Positions 19,101-61,152 of a stretch of DNA of 64,000 nt are shown here, piece after piece. The position numbers and the translations under genes are program-made. Within the stretch, counting starts at the first letter, position 1, and every line of letters begins with the position of its first letter. Where the stretch lies: the NCBI RefSeq assembly GCF_018320785.1, contig NC_054873.1, positions 27,370,196 through 27,434,195 of the forward strand. Direction: 5' to 3'. This stretch comes from Cheilinus undulatus (taxonomy: Eukaryota > Chordata > Actinopteri > Labriformes > Labridae). A model generated the notes under the pieces. That model saw only the letters and a list, made by a program, of their open reading frames with translations. It was not told the DNA's origin and ran no database searches.

Positions 19101-21212
19101 TTCCAGAAATCCTACTAATCTCAGGAATATATGCTGTTTGCACCATACTTTGTTAAATAAACAGATGTGAATTTAATCATTGTAAACAGAAAGCCTGAGA
19201 ACCAAAAGTTGTGAAATGGAAAAGCTTTGCCCCGTGTGAGGCTCGAACTCACGACCTTCAGATTATGAGACTGACGCACTGCCTACTGCGCCAACGAGGC
19301 ATGCACTTTCTTTGTCACTCTAGTGTAACAAGACCCCTGAGGCCACATCCCCCCCAGACTTTGGGCTGAAGCATAGTTGAAATTCCTTTGGTGCTCACCT
19401 CTCTGTAGAATGTATGCTGTGGGTTTTTTCTAAGCCTTTAAATCTATATGTTTAGGTGTGTTTGTTTCAGTGTGCTGCAACTCGTGCTGTTCAATTTCTG
19501 TCTCATTCACCATGACTAAGTGATGTTTTTCCCCCATAGCTGCTTCCCCTCACAGCCAGAGGAGTATGACGCCCTCCAGCGAGCATGCAGCCACACCCAC
19601 ACCCCCCTGCAGCCCACAGCACATCCTTAATTGGCAGAGCGGGTAAGAGAGGCACAAAGCCTGTTTACTTGTATTTAATTGGTCCAATAACGTGTTGTAA
19701 GGCACCAAAAGACACATCATGGACATATGAAGATCTGACCAGTCAGACCATTCATGAGTGGACTAGAGCATTTTGATCCACATAAAAATGAGAGTTCAGG
19801 CATATGTGCCCTTGGCCATATTGATGCCATCCAAGCTGATATCTGATACCTAGTAGTAAGCCTAAATAGCAGCACCCGATAGTTCAGACCACATACAGAG
19901 GTGGTCTGGGATGCCTTCAACCACATATGTTTGTTTGAGTAAACGTCCATCCAACAATGTTGGCTCCCACTGAGCTTAAACGATGATGCATTCTGTCTTT
20001 TCAAACAGGCAGAGGTACTTATTTGCATGTGAAATAGAGAGGGGAATTCTGATCTCAAATACTCAGTGTAGATGCATGTAAATGCATAGTGTAACAACAG
20101 AGCAGCTACGTAAGTAGTTACATTATCTACGTAGCTAAGCTTAACATTGCTAAACATTCAGATTGAAAAGCTAACTTGGCTTCATTGGCTTGTGTAGTAA
20201 TTAATTACGTAGGTAGCATCCTTATGTTAGCTTTATCTTAAGCTAATGAAACTAAAGCGAGCCGTTGTTCACATATCTATTTCTAAAATGGATCTATGCA
20301 TAATTCAATCCTGGATTAGACCTCTGTCCTTTTTGTTGTTTTATTTATGAAATGTTTCTTAATGTAATGTTTGCAATGTGGCTTTTTCATGTGTGTAACT
20401 GCTGGACATTGTTTATGAACAAAGGGGAATTTTAAAAATCTCAAACTTGAAATAACTAGTATGGCATTTCCTTTCTGAGATGTATGGTGTCTCAGATGAA
20501 CGGTCTGTGTGCCGTCAGAATTATACGGTCTGCAGCCAGACTCCTCTCAAGTGTATGGCTAAATGCAAGGATGGATGTTAATGCAAGGTATAAATAGCTT
20601 CTTTGACACTGAGTGACAGATCACTTGCCTCATTTTCATAGGATTAAAAATTCTCCACTGCGCCTCCTCCTCTGTTTATGTTGAATTATTTTTGGGCACA
20701 CCCACAGTCACACCTGGAGCAGTCTATGTTTGAAGCTGGATAGAAACCAGAAAATGTCCTAACTACTCAGCTTCTTTCCTTAAATGTCTATCCCACAAAA
20801 ACCTTAAAACTATGCATCCCCTCATGCTTTGTGTGTCAGCTGACTTTGTATGTATTGTTAAACTGTTACTAGAGAATGGTGTTGTTGTGGTTGGGGGCTC
20901 TTTTTTAACTTCATTCTAAAAATCCAATAATCTGTCACCTCCCTTTTTTTTTCTATCTTATCAATTTTTCCATTGCTGCGTCTACTCTTTTCTTTCTGTC
21001 TTGGGTCATTTCTCTCACTCTGATACCCTTTTGTCACTGATTTTTTTATTACTTAATATAAATGTTGTTCTCTTTCCGGCCTCTTTCCTTTTCTGCACTA
21101 ACCCCTTCTTTACTTGTGTGTTTGTCCTCTCTCCTGGTTTAGAGGGACAGCAGACAGCTCTCCTACTGTGGACGTCTGTCAGTCTCCCCCTCAGCCCAGC
21201 TCTGATGCATAG
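1187..21212 (+). CDS. frmd4a: FERM domain-containing protein 4A, 5'-truncated by window edge
   Basis: Scaffold that links Par-3 with cytohesin/ARNO Arf6 exchange factors at epithelial junctions (known role of the family). Nineteen coding exons are seen: 1187-1243, 1830-1852, 3627-3710, 3835-3900, 3989-4046, 4270-4356, 10111-10187, 10893-11031, 11181-11322, 13355-13488, 13587-13709, 15520-15751, 15960-16016, 16135-16372, 16635-16793, 17563-17892, 18022-18599, 19540-19642, 21143-21212. All have AG/GT borders, and the sum of 2757 nt gives 918 aa. The first visible codons (ELIEVDSDVVFELASYILQ) lie inside the FERM domain, so roughly 120-130 N-terminal residues are upstream of the window. After the FERM lobes (KDKQGIPWWLGLSYKGIFQY; VTRRTFGHSGIAVHTWYACP) comes the cytohesin-binding CUPID/DUF3338 coiled-coil region (EALEETLRQRIEELKS; GTAFKLDEQKILPKGE). 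A long disordered Ser/Pro/Gly-rich tail follows. FRMD4A fits better than FRMD4B because the tail motifs (SVDISPTRLHSLAQHF, YRIKEYPLYVEG) match FRMD4A as I remember it. Confidence 0.95.
5443..5590. repeat. Small hAT-type MITE remnant
   Basis: About 150 bp with imperfect inverted ends (tagtgctgggca on the left, gcagcccta on the right), the pattern of common teleost nonautonomous hAT elements with a TAGGGCTGGG-type end. Non-coding. Confidence 0.4.
6343..6374. repeat. CA-rich microsatellite
   Basis: An uninterrupted (CA)n run followed by an imperfect CA-rich stretch inside a frmd4a intron. Confidence 0.8.
8235..8710. repeat. Nonautonomous hAT-like MITE
   Basis: The left end reads tgtgtttgaaatcagtccct and the right end, reverse-complemented, begins ttgtgtcagaaatcacgc. 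The shared TGTGTxxGAAATC inverted end and the internal cactatatagt palindromes match a widespread fish MITE type. No coding capacity. Confidence 0.6.
8738..9312 (-). repeat. 575-bp TIR element, copy 1
   Basis: Begins caaggttataatagttttt and ends with a degenerate inverted version (ttttagttaactttatcaac). It is the same family and the same 575-bp length as the copy at 62740-63314, in the opposite orientation. AT-rich and non-coding. Confidence 0.6.
11477..11502. repeat. (CA)n microsatellite
   Basis: A run of about 13 AC dinucleotides in the intron following the exon 11181-11322. Confidence 0.85.
13859..14038 (-). repeat. tRNA-derived SINE
   Basis: On the - strand the head carries a pol III A box (tggcctagcagttaggt) and a B box (ggttcaagtcc at 13973-13983, read from the complement). 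A short body follows, ending in the aaaagcccc-type tail seen in fish SINEs. It lies in the frmd4a intron between exons 13587-13709 and 15520-15751. About 180 bp, so probably near full length or slightly trimmed. Confidence 0.7.
14141..14523. repeat. MITE with TGCAGTGTGTAA inverted ends
   Basis: The left end ggtgcagtgtgtaatattta and the right end ttttacacactgcaccttta are inverted repeats of each other. This end sequence is common in fish MITEs. A fragment with a related end (aaaggtgcagtatatagaac) sits at about 15097. The 129-codon open frame on the - strand overlapping the right half is not supported as a gene. Confidence 0.55.
16861..17379. repeat. hAT-like MITE rich in TTTACTT/AAGTA motifs
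   Basis: Starts caggggtggaaaac and contains repeated 'tactttactt'-style motifs and their complements (acttgagtagataag; tactttcacttgac), typical of a large fish nonautonomous hAT family. The right end is diverged and its limit is approximate. Located in the intron before exon 17563-17892. Confidence 0.5.
19228..19300 (-). tRNA. tRNA-Met (CAT), elongator type
   Basis: On the - strand the 73-nt sequence runs from GCCTCGTTGG to ACGGGGCA. The 7-bp acceptor stem pairs (GCCTCGT with ACGGGGC, one G-U), the anticodon loop is CTCATAA with anticodon CAT, the T arm has GAGTTCGAGCCTC, and the discriminator base is A. Internal A and B boxes are intact. The sequence is close to the canonical vertebrate elongator tRNA-Met and lacks the initiator-type AGCAGAGTGG start. 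It lies antisense inside the frmd4a intron between exons 18022-18599 and 19540-19642, and looks functional. Confidence 0.95.
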
Positions 21213-41785: not shown

Positions 41786-44700
41786 TCAGCCATTTTGAGG
41801 TCTGGCCAGGTTAGAGTTCAGATACACCACAGTGGCTGTGATATCGTCCCTGTACATACGAGCCAAGTCCTCTGGCAGAGCCAGCATAGAAGCCAGTCTT
41901 TCTTGGCAGAGTTCTCCATACTCCCCAGTGCCGAGAGCACGCCTGATGAGATGTGTGGCAGCGTTGGTGTCCAGAGCGGGGGAGGCCCGGGCCCTACGCT
42001 TCAGCAAGAGCTCATGCATTTGACCCAATTTCAACTGCCTCTCTGATGGAGAAACTGGAGCCTGAACAAAACACAGAAAAGTGTAACTTTAACAGGTAAA
42101 TGGTTCAAACACATGTATGAGTAGTTAACATATATGAGGCGTTTGCTATGGTTTAGAAGAATAACAGCACTTGTAATTTTGACTTCCCCACACGAACCTG
42201 GAGGTGGATCCCACTCAAGTGCTCGCCAACAAGTTGCACAGCCTCTTCACTCCCTAGTTCATCCCACAGGCCGTCAGTGCCGAGTATTAGAAAGCGGTCT
42301 TTCGGTCGGAGCTTATGATAGGTAATTTCAGGTGCTACATCCAGGTAGGGTGGAGTTAGGTAGTTAGGTGGAGTGTACTGGTACAGATTGAGAGAGTCCA
42401 GATCTACTCCGGACTCCAAGCTGGCTAAAACGCTCTGCTGCAACTCATGGCTCCACTTGAATCTCACATCACCAAAAGCACGCAGGGGCATTAAAACCTA
42501 ACAAAAAGATAAAAGCGTAGGACTTTATAATTCAGCAGTAAAATCATTGCATAGTCCCTCTGTGATGACATTTACCCCAAGAAGTCTGTCATCTGTGACC
42601 ACTGTGTCCCTCTCTGACGGCGGGTGCTGGGCGCGGATGCGCTCCACCTCAGTTTCATTTTGGGAGTTGTGGTCCTGGGAAAGGGGTAAGGCACTCCAGG
42701 AACCGTCCTCCTCCTGAACCCCCAGTACTATTCGACAGTCACCTGCATTTGCGACATGGATCCCCTCTGTTCCGATATGAGCCACAGAGGCAGTGCATCC
42801 AGCAAATGCAACCTTGGTAGACAATGATAGCTGTGTATCAACACCATGACACCTTCAATACCCATGAGAAAAAAAAAAAAGGCATAGTTTTACCTGAATG
42901 GCTGTGCTTTTCATCAGGTCATTTGAGAGAGGAACTTGAGCCTCTAAGGAGATGTCTGCATCAAGCCTTTTGAAAGCACGATCCAGAGCATCAGGAGGAC
43001 TAAAAACCATGAAAAAAGGGGTGTAAAGGAAAACCATTCATAAGCAGATATACTTGTATGTTTGACACTTGTCTGTGTAAATCAAAGCTTTTTTTTACCT
43101 CATGCCTTCCCCATGCTCCTCACTGTCCAGTAATTCTTGCCAGAACACCCTAAGGTGGTCAATGTAAAGTGATGCAGATTCACGATAGTTGAAATCTGAG
43201 TGGTGTTTGTACCACTGCAAAATAGGAGGAACAGGTCTGCCATGCTCCATGCATTTCTCAAGCTCCTCCAGGCTCTGCTTTGGCATCATTGCAACTGCTG
43301 TGTAGTACAGAAGCCGCTCGCTGACAGCCTGTGCACACGCCCAGCCCCCATGACCATCAAACACTCCAAAGAGCACTCCCTTTGACTGGAGAAGATTAGA
43401 TTGAGTTGTATTAGATTTGTATTAGATTTAACGGAAACAGGAGGAAAAGTAGGGTGGTAATTATATAGTTGTGAAGTGGAGATGGTGTTACCTGTAGGCA
43501 TGTGGCTGCACTGCGGCGGTCCTCATTAGGGGTGTTAGCAGCCAGCTGGTTACTCTCAAACTTTCTGACAGCACTGATTCCTCGGCCATCAAACTCAGGA
43601 ACAATTACAGTCTGAAGCACAGATGCACAAGCACGAGGACAAAAAATTATTATAAATGAATGCATTTATTGTTTACACTACGCAGATTTTTTCAGATAAG
43701 GCTACAGTTGGACACTCGTGTCTCTGCAGTATTTGTAGTGTTATGATCTACTGATATGCTTTTATTCATTCATTTGATCTCCATGTTTTTAATATTTGTA
43801 TTTTCTCATTGTCAATTGAAGCTGCTACTCTGTTTTTTGTTGTTCTATGACAATGACAATAAAGATTCTATCTATCTATACGTACATATACTATATCGCC
43901 AAGAGTATTCACTCACCAATCCAAATGATTGAAATCAGGTGTTCTAATCACTTCCATGACCACAGGTGTATAAAATCAAGCACCTAGTCATGCAGACTGT
44001 TTCTACAAACATTTACGAAAGAATGGGTCGCTCTCAGGAGCTCAGTGAATTCCAGCGTGGTACTGTGATAGGATGCCACCTGTGCAACAAGTCCAGTGGT
44101 GAAATTTCCTCACTCCTAAATATTCCAGTCAACTGTCAGTGGTATTAAAACAAAGTGGAAGCGATTGGGAACGACAGCAACTCAGCCACAAAGTGGTAGG
44201 CCATGTAAAATGACGGAGCAGGGTCAGCGGATGCAGAGGCGCATAGTGCGCAGAGGTCACCAACTTTCTGCAGAGTCAATCGCTACAGACCTCCAAACTT
44301 CATATGGCCTTCAGATTAGCTCAAGAACAGTGCGTAGAGAGCTTCATGGAATGGGTTTCCACGGCCGAGCAGCTGCATCCAAGCCATACATCACCAAGTG
44401 CAATGCAAAGCGTCGGATGCAGTGGTGTAAAGTACACCACCACTGGACTTCAAAGCAGTGAAGATGCGTTCTTTGGAGTGACGAATTGCGCTTCTCCATC
44501 TGGCAATCTGATGGACGAGTCTGGGTTTGGTGGTTGCCAGGAGAATGGTACTTTTCTGACTGCATTGTGCCAAGTGTAAAGTTTGGTGGAGGGGGGATTA
44601 TGGTGTGGGGTTGTTTTTCAGGAGCTGGGCTTGGCCCCTTAGTTCCAATGAAAGGAACTCTGAATGCGTCAGCATACCAAAAGATTTTGAACAATTCCAT

Positions 44701-46373
44701 GCTCCCAACTTTGTGGGAACAGTTTGGGGATGGTCCCTTCCTGTTCCAACATGACTGTGCACCAGTGCACAAAGCAAGGTCCATAAAGACATGGATGAGA
44801 GAGTTTGGTGTGGATGAACTTGACTGGCCTGCATAGAGTCCTGACCTCAACCCGATAGAACACCTTTGGGATGAATTAGAGCGGAGACTGAGAGACAGGC
44901 TTTCTCGTCCAACATAAGTGTGTGAACTCACATGCGCTTCTGGAAGAATGGTCAAAAATTCCCATAAACACACTCCTAAACCTTGTGGAAAGCCTTCCCA
45001 GAAGAGTTGAAGCTGTTATAGCTGTAAAGGGTGGACTGACGTCATATTAAATCCTATGGATTAAGAACGGGATGTCACTTAAGTTCATATGCAAGTCAAG
45101 GCAGGTGAGTGAATACTTTTGGCAATATAGTGTATATACAGTGCTTAACAAATTTATTAGACCACCCTAACCCTAACCAAAGTAAGGTTTATGCCACAGC
45201 TGCCCTAAATTAACAGCACTGGTAATTACCAAAATCGTTTTTTATGTTTCTGCAATGGTTGATACACTAATATGTAGAAGTTCTTTAACCCAAATGATAT
45301 TTTCAATGCTAAAATATTATTATAATTGTTATCCATGCATTTTCAAATTTACTGATTTACAAAAAAAACTGAAAAAAATAGTAAAGCACATTAATATTTC
45401 TTGATTAATATGTCAAATTATAGTTATTTACTTGCATTCCTGAACAGAAAAATGAGTTTCTGACTTCTCATAGAAGTCCAGTGAGCCGGCTCAAATTCGG
45501 GTGAATTCAGTTTGAAATCCCTCATTCCTGCAAAATAATAAAACGTGGAGAGCTCACTGAAAATGAAAGAGTCCACATTAAAGCACTTCATGATGCTGGA
45601 TGGTCTTTGAGACAAATATGCCAGGTGGTCTAACAAATGTTTTAAGCACTGTAAATATATATTCAGAACACTGCTTCCCAAAGTGTGGGCTTGGCGCCTC
45701 TGGTGGGCCCCAGAGGTACTGCAGAAGGGCTGCAAGAGGTGAATTGCAAGAAATAAAAACCATAAACCTAATAAGTAATCATCTTCATGTGAAGTAAAAA
45801 TATGGTGGTAAATAATTTGAATCTCGTGTCATGATTGGGTGAGGGTTTTGGTGGGCCAACAGAGAATATGAGGATTCACTTTGAAACAAGTTTGGGGAGG
45901 GCTTATCTGGAAAGTTCACACGCCTCTCAAACCTACCACCATCTCAGGAATATACATTTGATTTGTGATCCTTATGTTACGACACTATTATGTCCATTAC
46001 CTGCTCGTTAGATCGAAGAATACTGTTGATCTGGACTTGGTTGAGTTGGAAGTCGATGTCCTGACGAGTTGAAAGGTGTCGCCCACTTTGAGATCGCTCT
46101 ACTCTGGAGGCACGCCGGGATGAGAAGTGACGATGATGGGCTGATCGGGGCTGAGAAGTGGGTTGTGCTTCAAAGAGGCAACACTGAATGAACTGAACAA
46201 ATAAAGCACAATAGATGCAAATACACTGTAAATAAGACTGAATGGAGTACACGTTTAAGTACAGTTAAACAAAAGTAAACCATAGTACAGACCTGAGATG
46301 AAGCCGACCATGGAGGTATCAGTGTGTAGCTAGAAGCTCTTTGGAGAATGCTGGCGCACACACGTCCAGACAT
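41786..46373 (-). CDS. pdp2: Pyruvate dehydrogenase phosphatase catalytic subunit 2
   Basis: Mitochondrial-matrix PPM/PP2C-type Ser/Thr phosphatase that dephosphorylates and reactivates the pyruvate dehydrogenase E1 component (family knowledge). Eight coding exons: 46373-46293, 46192-46001, 43611-43492, 43385-43099, 42999-42894, 42812-42576, 42497-42198, 42061-41786. The sum of 1599 nt gives 532 aa; human PDP2 is about 529. The Arg/Ser-rich start ([20 protein letters not shown]) fits a mitochondrial presequence. Motifs in order: [27 protein letters not shown], metal-site [30 protein letters not shown], and the C-terminal [18 protein letters not shown] carrying the last metal-binding Asp residues. 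PDP2 is preferred over PDP1 because of [11 protein letters not shown] and YDSL-free linkers close to PDP2. An alternative acceptor at 46183 would drop three residues (FIQ). The intron at 43612-46000 is swollen by transposons. Confidence 0.95.
43888..45137 (+). mobile_element. Tc1-like transposon with broken transposase
   Basis: About 1.25 kb with roughly 30-bp inverted ends (left ctatatcgccaagagtattc; right, reverse-complemented, ctatattgccaaaagtattc) next to TA-rich flanks. The transposase on + is split: the N-terminal start at 44023 ([20 protein letters not shown]), a shifted frame 44165-44461 with the second DNA-binding segment ([20 protein letters not shown]), then 44486-44836 with the catalytic-core remnants ([33 protein letters not shown]) and [15 protein letters not shown] downstream. 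Frameshifts and in-frame stops (after SKQ, after DWPA) make it inactive. It sits in a pdp2 intron, in antisense orientation to that gene. Confidence 0.92.
45138..45653. repeat. Tc1-type MITE abutting the Tc1 element
   Basis: The left end acagtgcttaacaaatttat, followed by tagaccacc, and the right end ggtggtctaacaaatgtttt, followed by aagcactgt, are inverted repeats of about 28 bp. There is no coding region. It starts within a few bases of the right end of the 43888-45137 transposon, around a TATA stretch. Confidence 0.75.
45663..45935. repeat. Possible hAT-type repeat fragment
   Basis: Starts actgcttcccaaagtgtggg and continues ggtgggccccagaggtac, an end type common among fish hAT repeats. The right limit is unclear. 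Confidence 0.35.
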
Positions 46374-46980: not shown

Positions 46981-51189
<4,209 letters not shown>

Positions 51190-53428
51190 CTAAAGCCTGT
51201 GGTGTTTTTTTACATTCACATTTCCATGTTTTCTATTAATGTATCGTCTCTGATTCCGATGATATGGATCATAACGAGTCTTTGGTCGAGATACTTTGCC
51301 CCTTACGTAGCGGCTTTTGGATTTCACAGCATATGTGTGCGCAGATGTTGGTGACATAATGAGGCCTGTCTGAGGAGGAAGCATCTTAGTGTTGACACTT
51401 TTCCTCCAAAAGACACCGTTTAAAGTAGAAGCAGAGACTCTGGATGCTGATTGGGGGTGAAGTCGCTGGCTGGCCATGCTGTGATGCCCTTTCTTTGCAA
51501 AAGCTGGAAGCTTCCAAGCTCTGCTAGGCCGCATGAGGGCCTGCTTGTGGCCGCCTCTGACTGCACTCATAAAGCCACCATGCAGAGAAGTGCCTGGTCT
51601 TTGCCGTGGGGGGACGAAGCTCAGGTGTCTTCGTGCACCATGACCATGAAACGTTGGAACATTTTTTCCATTAATACCTTTATTTCTGGATACAACTTCT
51701 CCACCTACTGATCTTGAAAAAGCCGTCTCCGATGCTTGAGGAGAGTTAGCCAGAGAGTTGAAACTTGCATAACCAACCTTAGACAAGACCCTGCTCTGGG
51801 TGGAGTCCAAGCCATTAGATAAGGGGAGCAGGGTGTTATTTAACATTTCTGTTGATTCTTGGATGGCAGAGATTCGATTCTGCTTAGATGGGTCTTCATC
51901 TTTAACCTGTGCAGGGTGGATTGAAGGATGAGTAATGCTGACTCTCTGCTCTTCAAGATAGCCATCATGATAAAAACTAGAAGGCTTCACAGAAATATAA
52001 TAAGGGTGGTTTGATTGAGTATCCACACGACCACTGATCATCTTTGATGAAGGGTTTTCAGAGCTAGAAGAAACAGATCCAGCAGGAGCAGGCTGGTGGA
52101 CGTTGGTAATGTAGTTTATATAGTTTGATTCCTGGAGAGCAGTTGGTTGATAGGCTGGAAATGTTGGGGCTGGTCTTTCCTGGTGTTTTGGTTTGAATTC
52201 TGGAAAATGCAGTTTACCTCTTGGTGCACTGATGTATAAACTTTTGCCATAAGAACTCAAAGCCCGGGGCTTTGGTGAAGGCAGATGGTCATCAGATGTT
52301 GTTTGGTGACTGGCTGCTTTACTGCCAGGTGTGTGATTTGGTGGTTGGATTTCTTTCTCAGGGGTTTGAGGTGTTAATTTGCGTGAATAGTCGCTGAAAT
52401 CTGGAGAGGAATACTTCTCAAAAGTTGAGTCAGAGGGAATTTGCTCTAAACTTGTTGAACGATCGTAATTGTGTGTATCAAGAACATTTAAAAATGTATC
52501 CTTACCATTGTAAGACCTTTCATTGTCTTTTGAAACAAACTGTGTGGCAGCTGGCTGATGTTGGAAAAAATCATTCATGCCTTGTCTGTTTTCATGACCA
52601 CCGTGTGACATGAAACTTGAAGTAGAGTCAACAGGGTCAAGGATGGAGAAGCTTTCACTTGGAATATGGTAGTCACTTTGTTCAAACACGTTTTCTCTGG
52701 ACTCACCCCAAGCTTCATTTTCATGCTCTCTTTCTTCTCCTGCAGAGTCAGATGTCGGAGTGCCTCCTTCAGTATTTCCAGCATTAGAAACCAAACTGTT
52801 TTCAATAACATCCCGCGCTGTTTGAAAATGTCTTCTTGGGTCACTTCCAGGTTTCAAGAAGGAGCTTTTCATTCTGTCTATGAACTCTTTAAGATCTCTC
52901 ATCGTTGAGAAACTTACGCCCTCCGTGGCTTTCTGCTGTGTGTGCTCCTTCACTAAAAGGTCAAACGGGTGTTGAGAACCTGAATCTTCACGATCAAAAT
53001 TCTGTACTGAGCGAGAAGCAGGGACTGTTGAAAATGCCTCAGTCTCCTGTCCTGAATCTAGTGTGCTTTGTACCATTTCTTCTCCATGGCTAACAGCAGA
53101 GCTAGAAATCTCATTGTCTTCATGATGGACTTGTTGACTCTCAGGGGCCACAATGCCAGTCTGCATCTCATTGATAAGACTTTCAGAGTCATGGTTTGGG
53201 TTCAGAGAGGCGCCAGAGAAGATCTGGTTTGAGGTTAAGGGATCAAACACACCTGCATGGCTCCTAAAGTCATCATTTTCAACAGAGTAGCCATGTGCAC
53301 AATTGTAACCTACCAGGAAAGAGAAAACAAGAGATCATTTCTTATTCAGTATGATTGACAAGTATAAGAAAGTAATAGAAAGTCTTACTTTTTTGAGGAG
53401 GAAACCAAATACAGATCCAGAACAGCAT
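51190..53428 (-). CDS. Unrecognised Ser-rich, intrinsically disordered protein, 719 aa
   Basis: Two coding exons: 53428-53389 (exon begins at an acceptor, 53447) and 53309-51190, joined in phase to 2160 nt. Exon 1 encodes a short hydrophobic start (MLFWICIWFPPQKS), possibly a signal peptide. An in-frame open upstream stretch means the true start may lie in an earlier exon. The next residues hold the only cysteine of the large exon (YNCAHGYSVENDD). Residues from about 30 to 250 are acidic and Ser/Glu-rich with one predicted helix (MRDLKEFIDRMKSSF). The middle is Pro/Ser/His-rich (TPQTPEKEIQPPNHTPGSK). The last 180 residues are strongly basic, with Arg, Lys, His and Tyr (KSRYVRGKVSRPKTRYDPYH; ending NVNVKKHHRL). 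No known domain, repeat or active site is seen. The long stop-free frame and conserved splice sites argue that it is real. Possible roles, such as a matrix, egg-coat or mineral-binding protein, are only guesses from composition. Confidence 0.75.
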
Positions 53429-53447
53429 GGTGCAAGGCCAATGAAAC

Positions 53448-56400
53448 CTGAAAAAGAACAAAGTCAGAAACAAAACTAGTAACACATTCAGGCCAGCTGT
53501 AGTCGCCAGTTAACTAAATACACAACTTCATCTCTTGAGTCACATTAATGATATTTATGGTCAAACATTACTCCAGTAGAAGTGAAGGTTGCTTATTCAA
53601 AATAGTACTGACATTTAAAGTACTGTGGTACATACTGATAAAAAATATCAGGATTCAATTTTTAAAAACAAAAAATCTCAAAACGTATTTTCAGAACAAA
53701 TTAATTCAGTCAAGAATACATTGGTGTGAACTGGTGTGACTCACTATTTTTATTTAAGATGACTTTTAAAAGCCACATTTAAACATTTGCAGCTCTGAAA
53801 TAAGAGGAGCAATAATGGAACAACCAACAATAGTGATAAGTGCAAGGCCTCTTCAAATTTAAATTAATTAGAGCAGTCTAACAGAACTTGCTCTCCAGAG
53901 AGACCACGTCCCCATTTAGGGGAAACAAGCCCAGAGACTGAATGGCAGTCGATGAGAAAACAATGGTAGCAATGTGATTAAACACTTTGGTGTGTTTTGT
54001 GCTTCAAAACATTCAAAAATGATAGTTTACAATATATTTTCCATCATCAAATGACTTAGGAATGTGAAAGAACAGCTCTGAGGCTGTAAACTGTAAACAG
54101 GCATCACATAAGGTATGTGATGCTTGTTTGTGATGTCTGTTCAGACTCACTATGCCACACTGGACAATGAAATTCTTTATTTTTGAGGCCAATCCCCGTT
54201 CAGAAAAGTCATTGTTTTCATGTTTAACTTAATGGCCACTGGATTCAAGCTCCAAATAACTGGACAGCTGTCAGATTTTTTTAGCTTTTAATCACTAAAG
54301 ACCCTTCATATCCCATTGACTGCCAGTCACTTTAAATGTTTTGTTGTTGTTTTTAACTCAGAAAAGGGCAGGGTGTTCATACGGGCAAAGTATCCAGATG
54401 GATTTTTCTTATCAGTTCTTTTGTGTTATGTATCCCAGCATGCTTTGCACAGTGAAGCAGCCTCCTGCTATGAAAAATCCTATGGCTGATAGGGTGTGTT
54501 GGAAATTTACTTTTTTGCTCACATGCTACTGTGCCTGGTAGATTAAAAAAAAATACTTTTTTTCCAGACACTTTATTTAAGTGAGCGGCATAATGTAATG
54601 AGGTGTTTTATAATTATCAAGGCTTTCAGTATCAAAGCAATAGGCCATTAAATAAGGAGAAATGTTTCCACTAGCAAAAAAAAAAAAATACTGGTGTGTA
54701 CAATCTTGTTCATTATTTTGAGGCTGGTTAGCCTCCACTGTAGTCAAGTCATAAAATGCAGATTTAACTGCAACTAAACCTCAGCTGAGAGGCAAGATAA
54801 TCAATTTATTGTTATGTTTTCATATTGGGTGAGTTAATACAATCTTAAACGTTCAATTGAAAGTATGTTACTTTATCATGCAAAATCCATGTATCCCATG
54901 TTTAAAGACAGCAGGATGTTTTGATAAGTAGTTAAGCATGTACTGGACAAGATTACCAAGAGAAGAGAGGTACCATTTTCTTTACCAGTCCCAGGGGCCT
55001 GTAGGTTTAACAAATTCACTTCACTACTCAAATATATCTGCATTTGGCTGGTGGTGGGCGCTTACTCTGCTGATACGCGAGTGCTGCCATCACGGCTGGC
55101 TGCTGTAACTATGGCGGTAACTGCTGTGTTTTAATGTCGCCTGCTGACTGTGACAGCTGCAAAGATAGTTGGATTAAAAAAGTTAGCTGCTGGTAGCTTT
55201 ATTTAGACTTTATATATTTGGTAGAATTTAACTGATTCTAATATCTAATCGAGAGTACCACTACATATTTGTGGTTGAGTGCTGTTTAACATGTATTTTT
55301 TAAGACTGCCAATTAGGTAAAGAGTTTAACAGCTGCATTTAATCATTAAAGGCTAGCAGTGCCAGTAAATGCATTTTAAAATAAATTTTCAAAATGTATC
55401 TATTTCCTTTTTTTTTGTTTTTTTTTTTTTTTTGTTAAAGCAGTAAATCTGTAAGGATTCATGCAGCTTTAACTTGATTATACCCACAAGTTAGCTGAAA
55501 ACTGTTATTTATGAGATTATGTTATGAATCACCTGGAGATTAAAATGCCCTCAGAGAGGCCAAAATAATGATACTGTGTTTAAACATGTTCATCCTGATG
55601 TCCTTTTTAATTGAAATAAAGTTGAACAGAAAGTTATGTTAATAGAAGAAAAATGTTCACTTCTTTTGTCAGTTATCATTTTGATATGTGAATGTTATTG
55701 TGAGATCCCACGACAGTAATGGCAGCCTGCGAACTCCCCTTTTCTCCTCTTTGATTTGTCTACATGCAATGAATGAATGGGGAAAATGCTGCACATACCA
55801 CACACAGATCCACACAAACAGTTTACTGTCATTTCTATCAGGTTTTAGAAAAGAAAAGCAAATTCATCAGCTGACTTCAGAGCTAGAGTAGAGAGAAATG
55901 AGAACATAGTGAGGTCAAAAGAACAAAATTTGTCTTAAAAATACAGGAGGGAAAAGTAATGTCTCTAAAATAATACTCTAGTGAAGATCAGCTACTCAAA
56001 CATGTATTTAGAGCATTTTATTCCATCATCCACCACTTATTTTAGTCAATTGTATATTTACCCAAATGGAAGAGCCATGACAATGAAGAGTCTGCCTGTC
56101 ACTGTTGATTAAAACCACCTGCAACCATTCATAACCTTTCCTTTTTTCTCAAGAGATAATGAAAGCAAGGAGAAAAGGAGAAGTGAATGAAGGACGCTCT
56201 CAGATCAGATTGAGGTGATTGCACACAGGTGATACTGTTTGAGTACTCACCTCATTAGACTACCACAGGTGAGTTTTTAGTCAAACGGCTGCATGGTGAT
56301 GGCTTGAGTGTCCAAAAACTCTGAATGTGAAAGATGTAAGCTTTAAATCAGCCTTTCCTTATTGTGTTTAATGTAAGTTTGCATAGGAGGATATGAATTT

Positions 56401-56740
56401 AGCACTTTAATCTGACCACTTTCAACAAGGTTTTAAAACATAGCTGATAGATCTTAAAAAAATTAAAACCCATTTAATCCCAAGAAAGTGACTTAGATGT
56501 GACTCTTTACAGAAATATGACCCATGTGAATGAAAGTCCTGAATATTTACATGCTGCTGACTGAGTTCATGAAGATATCGTATTTCACTGATATCCTTTC
56601 ACCTGTGCACCAGCACCGTTATCTAAATTTCCATTTAATCACTCTGCCCTGTCTGAAAGTATAATCCTTTATATCATCATCAGAACGCCCTTGATATCAA
56701 ATGATTTTTAAGAGGCTCCTGTTCTGTTGAATTCATGCAG
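53448..56740. other. Region upstream of the unknown gene and fbxl13
   Basis: No coding exon is supported. A candidate non-coding exon for the unknown gene ends at 56251 on the - strand with a gtgagt donor. A small CpG-bearing patch lies at about 55040-55150. A poly(T)-rich tract lies near 55407-55435. Promoters of the divergently transcribed unknown gene and fbxl13 are expected between here and 56.8 kb. Confidence 0.4.
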
Positions 56741-56830
56741 CTTCCTGGCAGTATGCATTCAAACTCCATCCTCTGAATTAATGATGAGCTGGAAGAGGTT
56801 CACCAGCAGACTACTGAGCTGGATCAGAAG

Positions 56831-59800
56831 ATGGACTTGACAGAGAAGCATTGTGTGAGGGAACGCCAGCGGGCTGGACCCACCAAATGGTCGGACTGGG
56901 TAAAAACGCACAAGAAGTCACAGGCTGGTAGGTGACTAATCAAGTTATGTAGACTGAACCACAAATCATGAGGATTTTTTGGCTTAGCTCATGGGAATTT
57001 AATGTTTGTGTGAGCTGTGTGTCTGTAGTGTAACCAGAGAAAACAAGCAGTGTGGTTATGAAATGCATCCAAACTGAAAGTCTCTTCTGAAATTCATTTT
57101 TTCCCCTCTGTGTACTCCCACTCATGACTCATTCTGTCCCCTTCATGTTGCTTTCCCTGAGAATCTTTAGCTTTATTGAGCTAAATTTGTCCTGATATTC
57201 TCTACAGTGTGTGGAAGCCCAAAGCAGGAATGTATCCACTCATTTCATTTCCTCAGTTATCCTGTGATGGAGTAATTTCTCTTTATTTCCCTGAGATCTT
57301 GACTTTGTCATCTCATACTCCCAGAATTGCAAAAGCACAGCAGTTATTGTGGTAACTTAAAGGTGAACTATGGATTTTCTGTTCTACAAATATTTTTTTT
57401 CTCCCCGTTCCTTCTTCCTTCATTGCTGCAGCTATGTTGAGTTACTTTTGCATATTTTTAGTGGTATGCTTAGAGTTTGTAAGTGTAGTGATTGGCTGAC
57501 TGCAGGCTCTTTCATAATTGTGATAGGTTATATGAAGCTTACACAGCCCCTTTTTACACAAATGCCCTCATAGACACACTGGGTTGATCTATCAGATTGA
57601 TAACATGTGTGATCCTCTTTGAGGATTAGTGAGGCTAGATGTCTGTAAGATACTCCAGGTATGTTGAATTCCCTTTGCAGTACAGGCCTCAGACAATTAC
57701 TTGTTTTCTAGATGGCAAGAAAAGGATCTCATGCTCCTCATTTTCCCCTTGAGATAATCAGGTAGTTTGATCCGCTACAATGTGAAAAGCAGCTTTTTAT
57801 CTTGAGACAGTGAGCTACATTTCCCCATGACCATGGGAAAACCATCTTTGAAAATATGTTATCTTTTTTTTTTTCTTGAAACAATCAGATACATTAAGAT
57901 CTCAGGAAAACACCAGAAATTCCTTGGTATCACATGAAAATTAGGTGAATAAAACAGGATTAAGGCTTAGGGCTTCTGTCCAGTTCAACTTTATCATGAT
58001 ACTGATGCCATAACTTAGACCACTTATACCCCCTGCTGAAAAATGGGGAAATGTACTAGTTCCATTCAAAAGTTACAAAGTTTTAGAACTAGATTAAAGT
58101 CTTCAACTTAATTTCATTGCCAAACTTGAGAGAACAAGAAATGCTGGCTGCCTTAAGCACATCTAAAGTACTATTTGCATGGGATTAGTATTACCTGTGG
58201 GCCTCTGATAATTTGTGAGGTCAGTGTTTGTTGTGGTGCAGTCCCATGGGATAAACAAAGTCTGTAATGTACTCAAATTTCTGACGTTTCTGAAGGAAAA
58301 CATGGAGGTGCTGCATGGCAGCAGCTTTGAAAACACACAGTTCATTTTTATTTCTAAATTCCATACAAAAATGCAATGTTGTGATCTTCACATTTTGCAG
58401 GTGGTGTTTCTCTTAAGTAGCCTATCCTAGAGATACTGTCAACCAGATTTTACAAAAGATAACTTAAGCCAAAGAATCGCTCTTTTCATCTGTTACATGT
58501 TTTCTGCAGCTGATGCTGTTGATGTTTTTGTGCATCTTATTAATTCAAGATCATTACGCTCCACCAACAACCCTCCTCACTGAGATTAGCTGCTGTAGCC
58601 AGATCCCTGAATGTTGAGTGACACATTTCAAAGCGGAAGTTGTTTAATATTTGAAATGTACAGCTAAATCATACTGATATAAGATCAGGCACAGTAAAAG
58701 AAAAGTTGTAGGAGGCAGAGCAGAAGTGCTGTGCATATTAAGGGAGCAGCAGTGCACACACATTTGGATATTTGAGTGTGAATATATGAATGGAGCAAAA
58801 AAAAGTCAACATAAGATAAAATCAGCTGAAAGAGCAGCACTCACATGTGTCAAAACTTGGTAGACAATCACCTACACGTCCTCAATTTCTTTCTTTTTTT
58901 GGGGGGGGGGTCAGAAAAAGCCACAAGAACCGTAAAAAACCACATTACAACCCTCATTTACAAAGATGCCAAATCACACATGATTAGGATTACCTGTCAA
59001 CCTATGTATGCTGAATTATGGCAGGTAATTCACCCTGGAAATTTTCCTCCACAAATTACAGACATGGTCAATTCACACAGGATTAAAGAGGTCCAGCATG
59101 ATAATTACAAATTACCAGAGGTCCCTAGGTAACACTAGTCCTGTGCGAATAGGGCTATGCCGTAATGTTGAAAAGGACTCAAAGAGGACAAAAGAAGACC
59201 TTTAGGTATGGTATATTTTATTGTTACAGAGTATAGTAGATATATACATTTTCAACATCTTTTTAAATTCATGTTTGTATAGATCCTGCAGAGGATGGGA
59301 ATGCTTCATGAAAACCCCAACAGAGTCCAACAGACTGGGAGACGCTGTGAAGGACTGTCGGTTCTCCCCAGCAGCCTCCTCCTGAAGGTAACATTTTAAA
59401 CTCTGCAGCATTCATTTGTCACTCATCTACTTTCTTAATGATATCCTGTATACTTTATGAGCCTCATTACTTCACAGACATAGACCGGTTTCTTCTCTGT
59501 TCTTTAAGCAGCACTGATGAGATCATTCAGGTTACATAACTCTAAGTGTAAACATGTTTCTCTGAGGTTGGCTGATTGATGAGAGTGGCTGCTCGTTGTG
59601 GTCTTACTCAGTACCACAGGGAGTATTTATCTATGAGACAGCCCTTATCATGATCTACTGCTGTACTGGGATTTTTCAAACAAATAGTTGTACTTTTACT
59701 GGTCTTCTGTACATATTGAAGTACTTCTACTTATAAACCAGGACTTATAACTTCAGCAAACATATACCTACACTTACTAATGTTGGCCTTGCATGGTGTA

Positions 59801-60747
59801 ATTTCACATCACTGGCATACGCTGGAATAGTTTGTTCAAATTTGGCTTTGTTTGTTCTTGTGTTTCTATTCAACACCTTGCATGATGAATTGTGCTTTGA
59901 CATGACTATGTTTGGAAAAAGAGAAGTGGCTGCTTGTTCACTGACACCATACTGCCCTGCAGAATGACAGCAAAAGAGGTGCCAGTGAAAACAGACTAGT
60001 CTGGTCCGAGGGTCTAACTTTCCCCAAGATTTTTTTTCTTTAAAAAGATGGCGTTTTTTTGTGAGAAAAGAAAACTGTAGGAATAAATGTTGATAGTGTG
60101 AATTTGCTTCATTGTTTTAATCTGTAGAAGAAGGCCAGCTATACACTACGGGCTTTTAAGCCCCATTTGAGGCAATATTGAAATTGTCCTTATGTCCGTG
60201 ATCTCTCATGTTTTTAAAATTGTTTCAGATTTTAAAATCGTCTAGTGTATGGCGGGCCGAAGGTTGGGCTCACACAATTGTGTCTTTGTGGTTGTTTCTG
60301 GTAGATACTATTTTGATGAACACAAAATGAATACTTAACAAGTTATCAAATATTGGAAAGATAAACGGGGAGAGTTCAGATGTTTCTGCAATCCTGAATG
60401 TTTACATCTGTCATCAAATTGCTTTCTCTGCAGATCTTTCAGTATCTCTCATTCCAAGACTGGCTTACTTGTGCTGAGGTGTGTTGCTCATGGAAATCAC
60501 TCATCCAGTCCGGTACACTGTGGAGTCAGGTCTGTGCTTTTTGTTTAGGATATAGAAAAAGTTTTTCTTGAAGCAGGAGTATGATTGTTTCCTTATGTGT
60601 TTCTCTGTTAGATAAACTTCTCTGCAAAGAAATGCTGGGCAACAGACTGCACAGTGCAGCAGATTCTGCTGAAATATCGCCCATTTGTGATCCATGTTAA
60701 CCTGCGTGGCTGCACGTCCCTAAAGTGGAACAGCCTGAAATGTATCA
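56831..60747 (+). CDS. fbxl13: F-box and leucine-rich repeat protein 13 (DRC6), 5' part
   Basis: Axonemal nexin-dynein regulatory complex subunit / F-box LRR protein (family knowledge). Exons seen: 56741-56927 (coding from an in-frame ATG at 56831, or from further upstream), 59283-59387, 60434-60529, 60612-60747. The first exon reads RAGPTKWSDWVKTHKKSQA. The next two give the F-box: LSVLPSSLLLKIFQYLSFQD and WLTCAEVCCSWKSLIQSG. The fourth begins the LRR array (INFSAKKCWATDCTVQQILL; HVNLRGCTSLKWNSLKCIS) and leaves phase 1. The remaining LRR exons lie beyond the right edge. Exon 1 leaves phase 1 but the exon at 59283 opens in phase 0, so at least one small exon between them is missing from this model. 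The F-box and first LRR match human FBXL13 well by eye; the N-terminal exon is less certain. Confidence 0.82.
57565..57693. repeat. Fragment of the CCAGAGG-ended TIR element
   Basis: Aligns with the right part of the 41084-41745 element: gttgat...gataacatgtgtgatc, ccaggtatgttgaa and the end agtacaggcctcagac. The left half is lost. In an fbxl13 intron. Confidence 0.5.
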
Positions 60748-60800
60748 GTGAGTATTGATCACCCTGCTGCTTCTGTACATGGGCGTAGCATGGGCTGAGA

Positions 60801-60826
60801 GGGGTGGGGTGGGGTGGGGGGTGGGG
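60801..60826 (+). other. G-quadruplex-forming motif
   Basis: Five runs of four or more guanines separated by single thymines on the + strand, in the fbxl13 intron just after the exon ending at 60747. Its meaning is unknown. Confidence 0.6.
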
Positions 60827-61152
60827 CAGAGAGCAAGATGATGAGGATGATGGAGTAGCAGAAAGCAGGGAAAATGAAGGTTTTTCTGCAGGCTGTGAAG
60901 AGGGGGAGTGGGCAGAACGTGAAGGTGAAGAAAGTGAGGGTAGTGCAGATGTTCGGGGGGGGGCAAAATCACACCCCTGCTTCTGTATACTTCTAATCAT
61001 GAGCCAAAAAATGAGTTATTAATTAACTTATTGAAAAAGACAACACTGACAATGCTACTATGTCTGATACAGACTGTTTTATGTCATTTAAAGAATACAA
61101 AGCTGAATAACAGAGTTTTGAAAGTCAGACTTTATGTCAAATGTCTCTGGAG

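Follow-up and report, generated by a model that had tools for sequence, protein, structure and literature searches.

The long minus-strand reading frame in the window, the whole analysed stretch of 64,000 nucleotides from Cheilinus undulatus, belongs to a gene (here the target) that, although outside the corresponding Pfam family as defined, probably represents a paralogue of the DUF1373 genes that has diverged strongly from them. Homology to these genes is very probable, and that the target is a real protein-coding gene is virtually certain. The initial annotation had described the product as a protein of unknown family. In this form the description is not borne out, since an exon layout and a C-terminal motif are shared with a cluster of DUF1373 genes and the target is therefore not of wholly unknown family. 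The tie depends mainly on exon layout and less on protein similarity. DUF1373 (PF07117) is described in Pfam as a medaka-specific family of unknown function.

Open frame, exon layout and the DUF1373 cluster

The longest frame of the window (51190-53334, minus strand) extends for 714 codons stop to stop, the runner-up encoding 239 aa. At this base composition, the probability of 713 codons being open by chance is ~5e-18, and the remaining two minus-strand frames across the large exon contain 27 and 62 stops. With a small and impure training set (stop present in 4 of 10 pieces), the codon score of the frame was mildly pro-coding (0.02 versus a mean of -0.24, sd 0.21, for 306 noncoding blocks); its synonymous component was negative (-0.13, s.e. 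0.02), reflecting synonymous codons unlike those of that small set. The exons at 53447-53389 and from 53309 join in phase to encode 719 aa counted from the ATG at 53428. Scored with approximate vertebrate matrices, the donor was at the 98.7th percentile of the minus strand and the acceptors at the 99.8th and 99.9th. The frame, the chance estimate and the phases agree with the initial annotation of a 2.1-kb exon open throughout and spliced in phase to a short exon.

A search of the genome with PF07117 revealed five tandem genes on the chromosome of the target (C9:36.741-36.759 Mb; 36741359-36758887), ~9.3 Mb from it. One large coding exon is common to the cluster genes and the target, and the intron phases of 2 and 1 in the target are those of all five cluster genes. 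Exon 2 is 59 nt in four of the five and 56 nt in the fifth; the nearest of the four 59-nt exons is identical to exon 2 of the target at 28 of 59 nucleotides, a value reached by 18 of 20,000 shuffles. By splice score alone the 59-nt exon of the target is unremarkable, with an equally good candidate in 22% of 200 shuffled regions, and it is credible because DUF1373 relatives share it and not because of its score. It had been proposed in the initial annotation before the DUF1373 family was known to the analysis.

Exon 1 of the cluster genes ends ATGAG/GTGAGT in four of the five and ATGAT/GTAAGT in the fifth. A first exon was therefore predicted for the target from the family layout and was then found: ATGAGGTGAGT occurs once in the window, counting both strands, at 56255 on the minus strand and upstream of exon 2. 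This 11-mer would be expected 0.0019 times within 53448-61000 of the minus strand and 0.031 times over the entire window, and a looser pattern (ATGNN, then GTRNG) gave a single site upstream of exon 2, which is the same ATGAG/GTGAGT 11-mer. The results suggest that translation of the target probably starts in an upstream exon whose final bases are ATGAG (56255-56251) and not at ATG 53428. The 719 aa of the initial annotation hold for the in-phase join from ATG 53428, whereas the upstream exon probably gives a product of 727 aa.

A donor-like site also follows the stop codon, at 9-11 nt in all four cluster genes inspected versus 55 nt in the target; in a single cluster gene a corresponding acceptor and an AATAAA were also read. 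The acceptor assigned to the last exon of the target (Table 1) has a competitor with a score of 6.0 versus 5.4, from which the exon would begin at 50978, and further ATTAAA/AATAAA sequences near the 3' end are located at 51045, 51040 and 50605. The agreements between the target and the DUF1373 genes are partly independent and were not all fixed in advance.

Table 1. Features of the target gene and neighbouring genes, in window coordinates.
Feature	Position	Strand	Basis
Exon 1, probable coding end (ATGAG, then GTGAGT donor)	56251..56255	-	11-mer match with DUF1373 genes; inferred
Exon 2, 59 nt, hydrophobic leader, intron phases 2 (5' side) and 1 (3' side)	53389..53447	-	splice scores; DUF1373 layout
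Exon 3, remaining coding region, stop codon 51190-51192	51190..53309	-	open frame; acceptor at 99.9th percentile
Probable 3'-UTR intron	50918..51134	-	donor AAG/GTATGT 9.8, acceptor 5.4
Last exon	from 50917	-	acceptor score 5.4 of preceding 3'-UTR intron
Possible polyadenylation signal ATTAAA	50845..50850	-	sequence only
Predicted helix pair, sole partly ordered-looking stretch, ~residues 155-197 of 727	52783..52911	-	AlphaFold2 without alignment; weak
C-terminal motif common to target and DUF1373 proteins, residues 680-703 of 727	51265..51336	-	BLASTP; shuffles
Gene presumed FRMD4-like	to 18.6 kb	+	one piece tested, no Pfam family
Classical cadherin	33.8-38.7 kb (by eye)	-	PF01049 and cadherin domains
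Pyruvate dehydrogenase phosphatase (PDP)	41.8-43.6 kb (by eye)	-	PDB 3mq3, E 3.8e-31
F-box gene	60.4 kb	+	PF12937
Leucine-rich-repeat gene	61.1-62.1 kb	-	leucine-rich repeats

The PF07117 profile matched five of six tail-containing pieces of the target with E values of 0.011 to 0.28 and 12.8 to 17.3 bits, all sub-threshold, the best score of 17.3 comparing with a Pfam gathering cut-off of 28.9 bits. One 317-aa piece that includes the tail gave no DUF1373 match in Pfam, and with the whole protein a chance-level match to Inositol_P (E 0.028) outranked PF07117. The target was also absent from the nine genome-wide PF07117 matches (E up to 10; 10 candidates scored). Since the scores fall below the Pfam cut-off, the target is classed as a relative of DUF1373 and not as a member.

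The conserved C-terminal motif of the DUF1373 proteins (VYAFSSRSSYQRGRAVFGQTRYTP) aligns without gaps to TYAVKSKSRYVRGKVSRPKTRYDP of the target with identity at 11 of 24 positions; for one pair BLASTP gave an E value of 0.004. None of 50,000 shuffles of the tail (top 46) and none of 5,000 shuffles of the whole protein (top 50) attained the motif score of 51, which spans 26 columns, and the best score among the 1,220 other frames of at least 30 aa in the window was 20. Beyond the 24 residues of the motif, the comparison with DUF1373 proteins revealed no similarity that convinces. The chains of both are of low complexity; however, the cluster proteins are about 214-318 aa long versus 727 aa for the target, and composition, repeat search and alignment show the target to lack the Gly/Ser/Tyr/Ala-rich repeats of its relatives, in place of which it has an acidic front and a basic tail.

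Two irregular DUF1373 sequences were observed in the genome. One cluster copy (L012, 3041-4042) is without the usual stop after TKGGY. A fragment on C5 (L014:4981-5115) contains the near-perfect tail motif VSELESVYAFSSRSSYQRGRAVFGQ and soon afterwards departs from the family; it may be part of a pseudogene or an exon that was captured.

Predicted protein and leader

The target protein is Ser/Pro/Gln/His-rich, with an acidic Ser/Glu-rich front and a basic Arg/Lys/His/Tyr tail. In the 719-aa model the net charge is -25 for residues 1-240 and +33 for residues 540-719, a segregation matched in none of 20,000 permutations and in accord with the acidic front and basic tail initially described. The single cysteine of that description is incorrect, the 719-aa model having two (positions 6 and 17); the 727-aa model has cysteines at 7, 14 and 25. 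The charge-hydropathy test scored 577 of 669 windows of the protein as disordered, and AlphaFold2 without alignment gave a mean pLDDT of 39.3, with values below 50 for 634 of 705 residues, a quality too low for comparison of folds. Block means of ~60-68 were obtained across most of the predicted helix pair. The two methods thus predict a largely disordered product, as had been proposed.

The leader of the target contains the hydrophobic stretch TMLFWICIWF without a clear cleavage site. Signal peptides were scored with a von Heijne matrix applied equally to the target and its relatives, for which control sequences gave ~10 (two secreted proteins) and ~-2 (two cytosolic proteins). The best scores for the target were -1.6 in the 719-aa model and -7.3 in the 727-aa model (MRFHWPCTMLFWICIWFPPQKS), in contrast to 9.75-11.76 for leaders of DUF1373 relatives (3 of 5 scored). 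The initial annotation had proposed secretion and a signal-peptide prediction that includes any upstream exon; the target leader fails the matrix with the upstream exon as without it. No two-exon model of the target reached a signal-peptide score of at least 4 when two acceptors scoring at least 4 were combined with first exons in 53.3-61 kb. Secretion is therefore carried over from the relatives by homology and is plausible because their leaders resemble signal peptides; by this analogy the target protein is fairly likely to be secreted.

The main rival to this reading, considered unlikely, is that the target is a non-secreted nuclear or cytoplasmic disordered protein that binds nucleic acid, in which the basic tail would contact RNA or DNA and the hydrophobic start would be incidental. 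The failure of the leader in both the 719- and 727-aa models is consistent with this reading, as is the net charge of +33 over the 180 residues of the tail, which could equally have a nuclear or RNA-binding role. A well-contexted minus-strand ATG at 55090 with a phase-1 donor would furthermore provide an alternative first exon (MAALAYQQ, 55090-55066) yielding a leaderless protein. However, such a start depends on a weak donor (5.7) at 55066 and bypasses the 59-nt exon, whereas the DUF1373 layout favours the hydrophobic exon.

Search for relatives and the remaining alternatives

Searches of Pfam with the whole target protein and its pieces gave no family above the cut-off, and a PDB sequence search with the protein found no relative, in agreement with the initial statement that no domain is recognised. 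Matches to Inositol_P, OST_P2 and carbonic anhydrase were dismissed as being at chance level. A protein search covering 1.17 Gb of the same genome in 46 contigs detected no second copy, the next match after the target itself having an E value of 1.3. Five stretches of viral contigs matched a pattern and 16 stretches were found in prokaryote genomes, none of which encodes a relative. The titles and abstract openings retrieved contained nothing on the target gene, and literature searches by the DUF1373 name and accessions (PF07117, IPR009803) found no paper. Another frame of the window with a FUN14-like look was without a match in Pfam.

These searches bear on the possibility that the target is an unrelated, lineage-restricted orphan gene and that its likeness to DUF1373 is coincidental. 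Consistent with an orphan are the restriction of similarity to 24 residues, below the Pfam cut-off, the lack of a paralogue detectable by sequence and a composition that differs from that of DUF1373 proteins. Against it stand the partly independent agreements in the motif, in the length, phases and nucleotide similarity of exon 2, in the ending of exon 1 and in the post-stop donor, and coincidence is considered quite improbable.

It is also very improbable that the start of the frame was misread, such that the hydrophobic exon 53309-53253, chained to 53447-53389, is read in a different frame and spliced to an acceptor further on. The 57-nt candidate exon 53253-53309 does rank second among minus-strand candidates by splice score (17.6), and two of its frames are open. 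The next phase-compatible acceptor, however, is at 53001 (4.3), so that ~84 codons of intron would have to be open by chance; in codon score, the three highest-ranking 60-codon blocks of the target frame include its first two, and the DUF1373 layout has a single large exon.

As far as is known, genes for secretory calcium-binding phosphoproteins (SCPP) have phase-0 introns only. Membership of the target in this ancient mineralisation family, which has similarly disordered members, is rejected as extremely improbable because its introns are in phases 2 and 1, despite a predicted disorder, Ser/Pro/Gln/His-rich composition and short leader exon that recall the disordered, Ser/Pro/Gln-rich products and short leader exons of teleost SCPP genes such as gsp37 and scpp7; the window neighbours (an F-box gene, PDP and a cadherin), among which no SPARCL1 was noticed, also argue against it. 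A link of DUF1373 to gsp37, considered as a possibility, was dropped, PMC13367325 placing gsp37 among the SCPP genes.

Genomic setting, proposed origin and role

The target is located ~13 kb from the classical cadherin gene, and the DUF1373 cluster is near TANGO6 on the same chromosome. Flanking the cluster are TANGO6 (PF23565, E 6.5e-21), ~9 kb to one side, and, ~28 kb away on the opposite side, a gene for a cryptochrome/photolyase (PF03441, E 1.4e-27), the intervals having been inspected by eye. The PDB matches of the cadherin were led by CELSR1, followed by EP-cadherin and Cadherin-1, and CDH1 is a candidate identity for this classical cadherin. CDH1 and TANGO6 are adjacent in mammals. A tandem array in an ancestral CDH1-TANGO6 neighbourhood, divided at some later point within one chromosome, would account for the target near a cadherin and the cluster near TANGO6. 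The target might accordingly be envisaged, as a rather doubtful scenario, as a long sister branch of a fish-restricted secreted DUF1373 family, the two branches having been adjacent in that neighbourhood before their separation; one would have become tandem short repeat-rich coat proteins and the other a 727-aa polyampholyte, acidic and basic in its two parts, in which nothing but the leader exon and the Tyr/Arg module has been retained.

On the other side of the target, the F-box gene is presumably FBXL13 and the leucine-rich-repeat gene is taken to be LRRC17. The PDB matches listed for the former were to other F-box proteins, FBXL13 not being among them. According to PMC3933685, LRRC17 is nested within FBXL13 in human and in coelacanth and/or zebrafish. 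X-box (RFX) sites, sought as a ciliary link to FBXL13, were represented in the window by no full 12/12 site and by one 11/12 site at 53502. A CpG-richer patch at 55051-55300 (observed/expected 0.70, 97.9th percentile of the window) carries ATGGCG/GTAACT on the plus strand and is a possible start of FBXL13. Elsewhere in the window, a Tc1/mariner-like transposase remnant was recognised by eye at 44120-44836 (plus strand), the antisense of which carries a 223-aa open frame at 44344-45015, and ARAGORN and Rfam identified a tRNA-Met gene (CAT) at 19227-19301 (minus strand).

The reading preferred here, that of a diverged DUF1373 paralogue with four exons encoding a disordered, secretory coat or matrix polyampholyte, is somewhat likely taken as a whole. 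The start codon would close exon 1, the leader would be encoded by the 59-nt exon 2, nearly all of the protein by the large exon 3, and the last intron would follow the stop. The product would enter the secretory pathway, as the DUF1373 relatives probably do. With signal-peptide-like leaders, Gly/Ser/Tyr-rich repeats and a Tyr/Arg tail, the relatives resemble coat or matrix proteins. The target would have kept the DUF1373 tail, a long polyampholyte replacing the repeats. As an extracellular coat or matrix polyampholyte, it might use its two charged blocks, an acidic front rich in Ser/Glu and a basic Arg/Lys/His/Tyr tail, to bind oppositely charged partners; the conserved Tyr/Arg motif might serve as an anchoring or cross-linking module. 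The extracellular coat or matrix role is itself put forward tentatively, from composition only; the actinodins, fish-only proteins of the fin fibres, are comparable by analogy only as fish-restricted structural proteins.

What appeared to be an orphan is thus probably related to a fish family that has a name but has hardly drawn study, and a concrete gene model is supplied for it that includes the first exon, the phases and the 3' end. If the link to DUF1373 is true, the shared 24-residue Tyr/Arg module would be the place in which to seek the function of the family.
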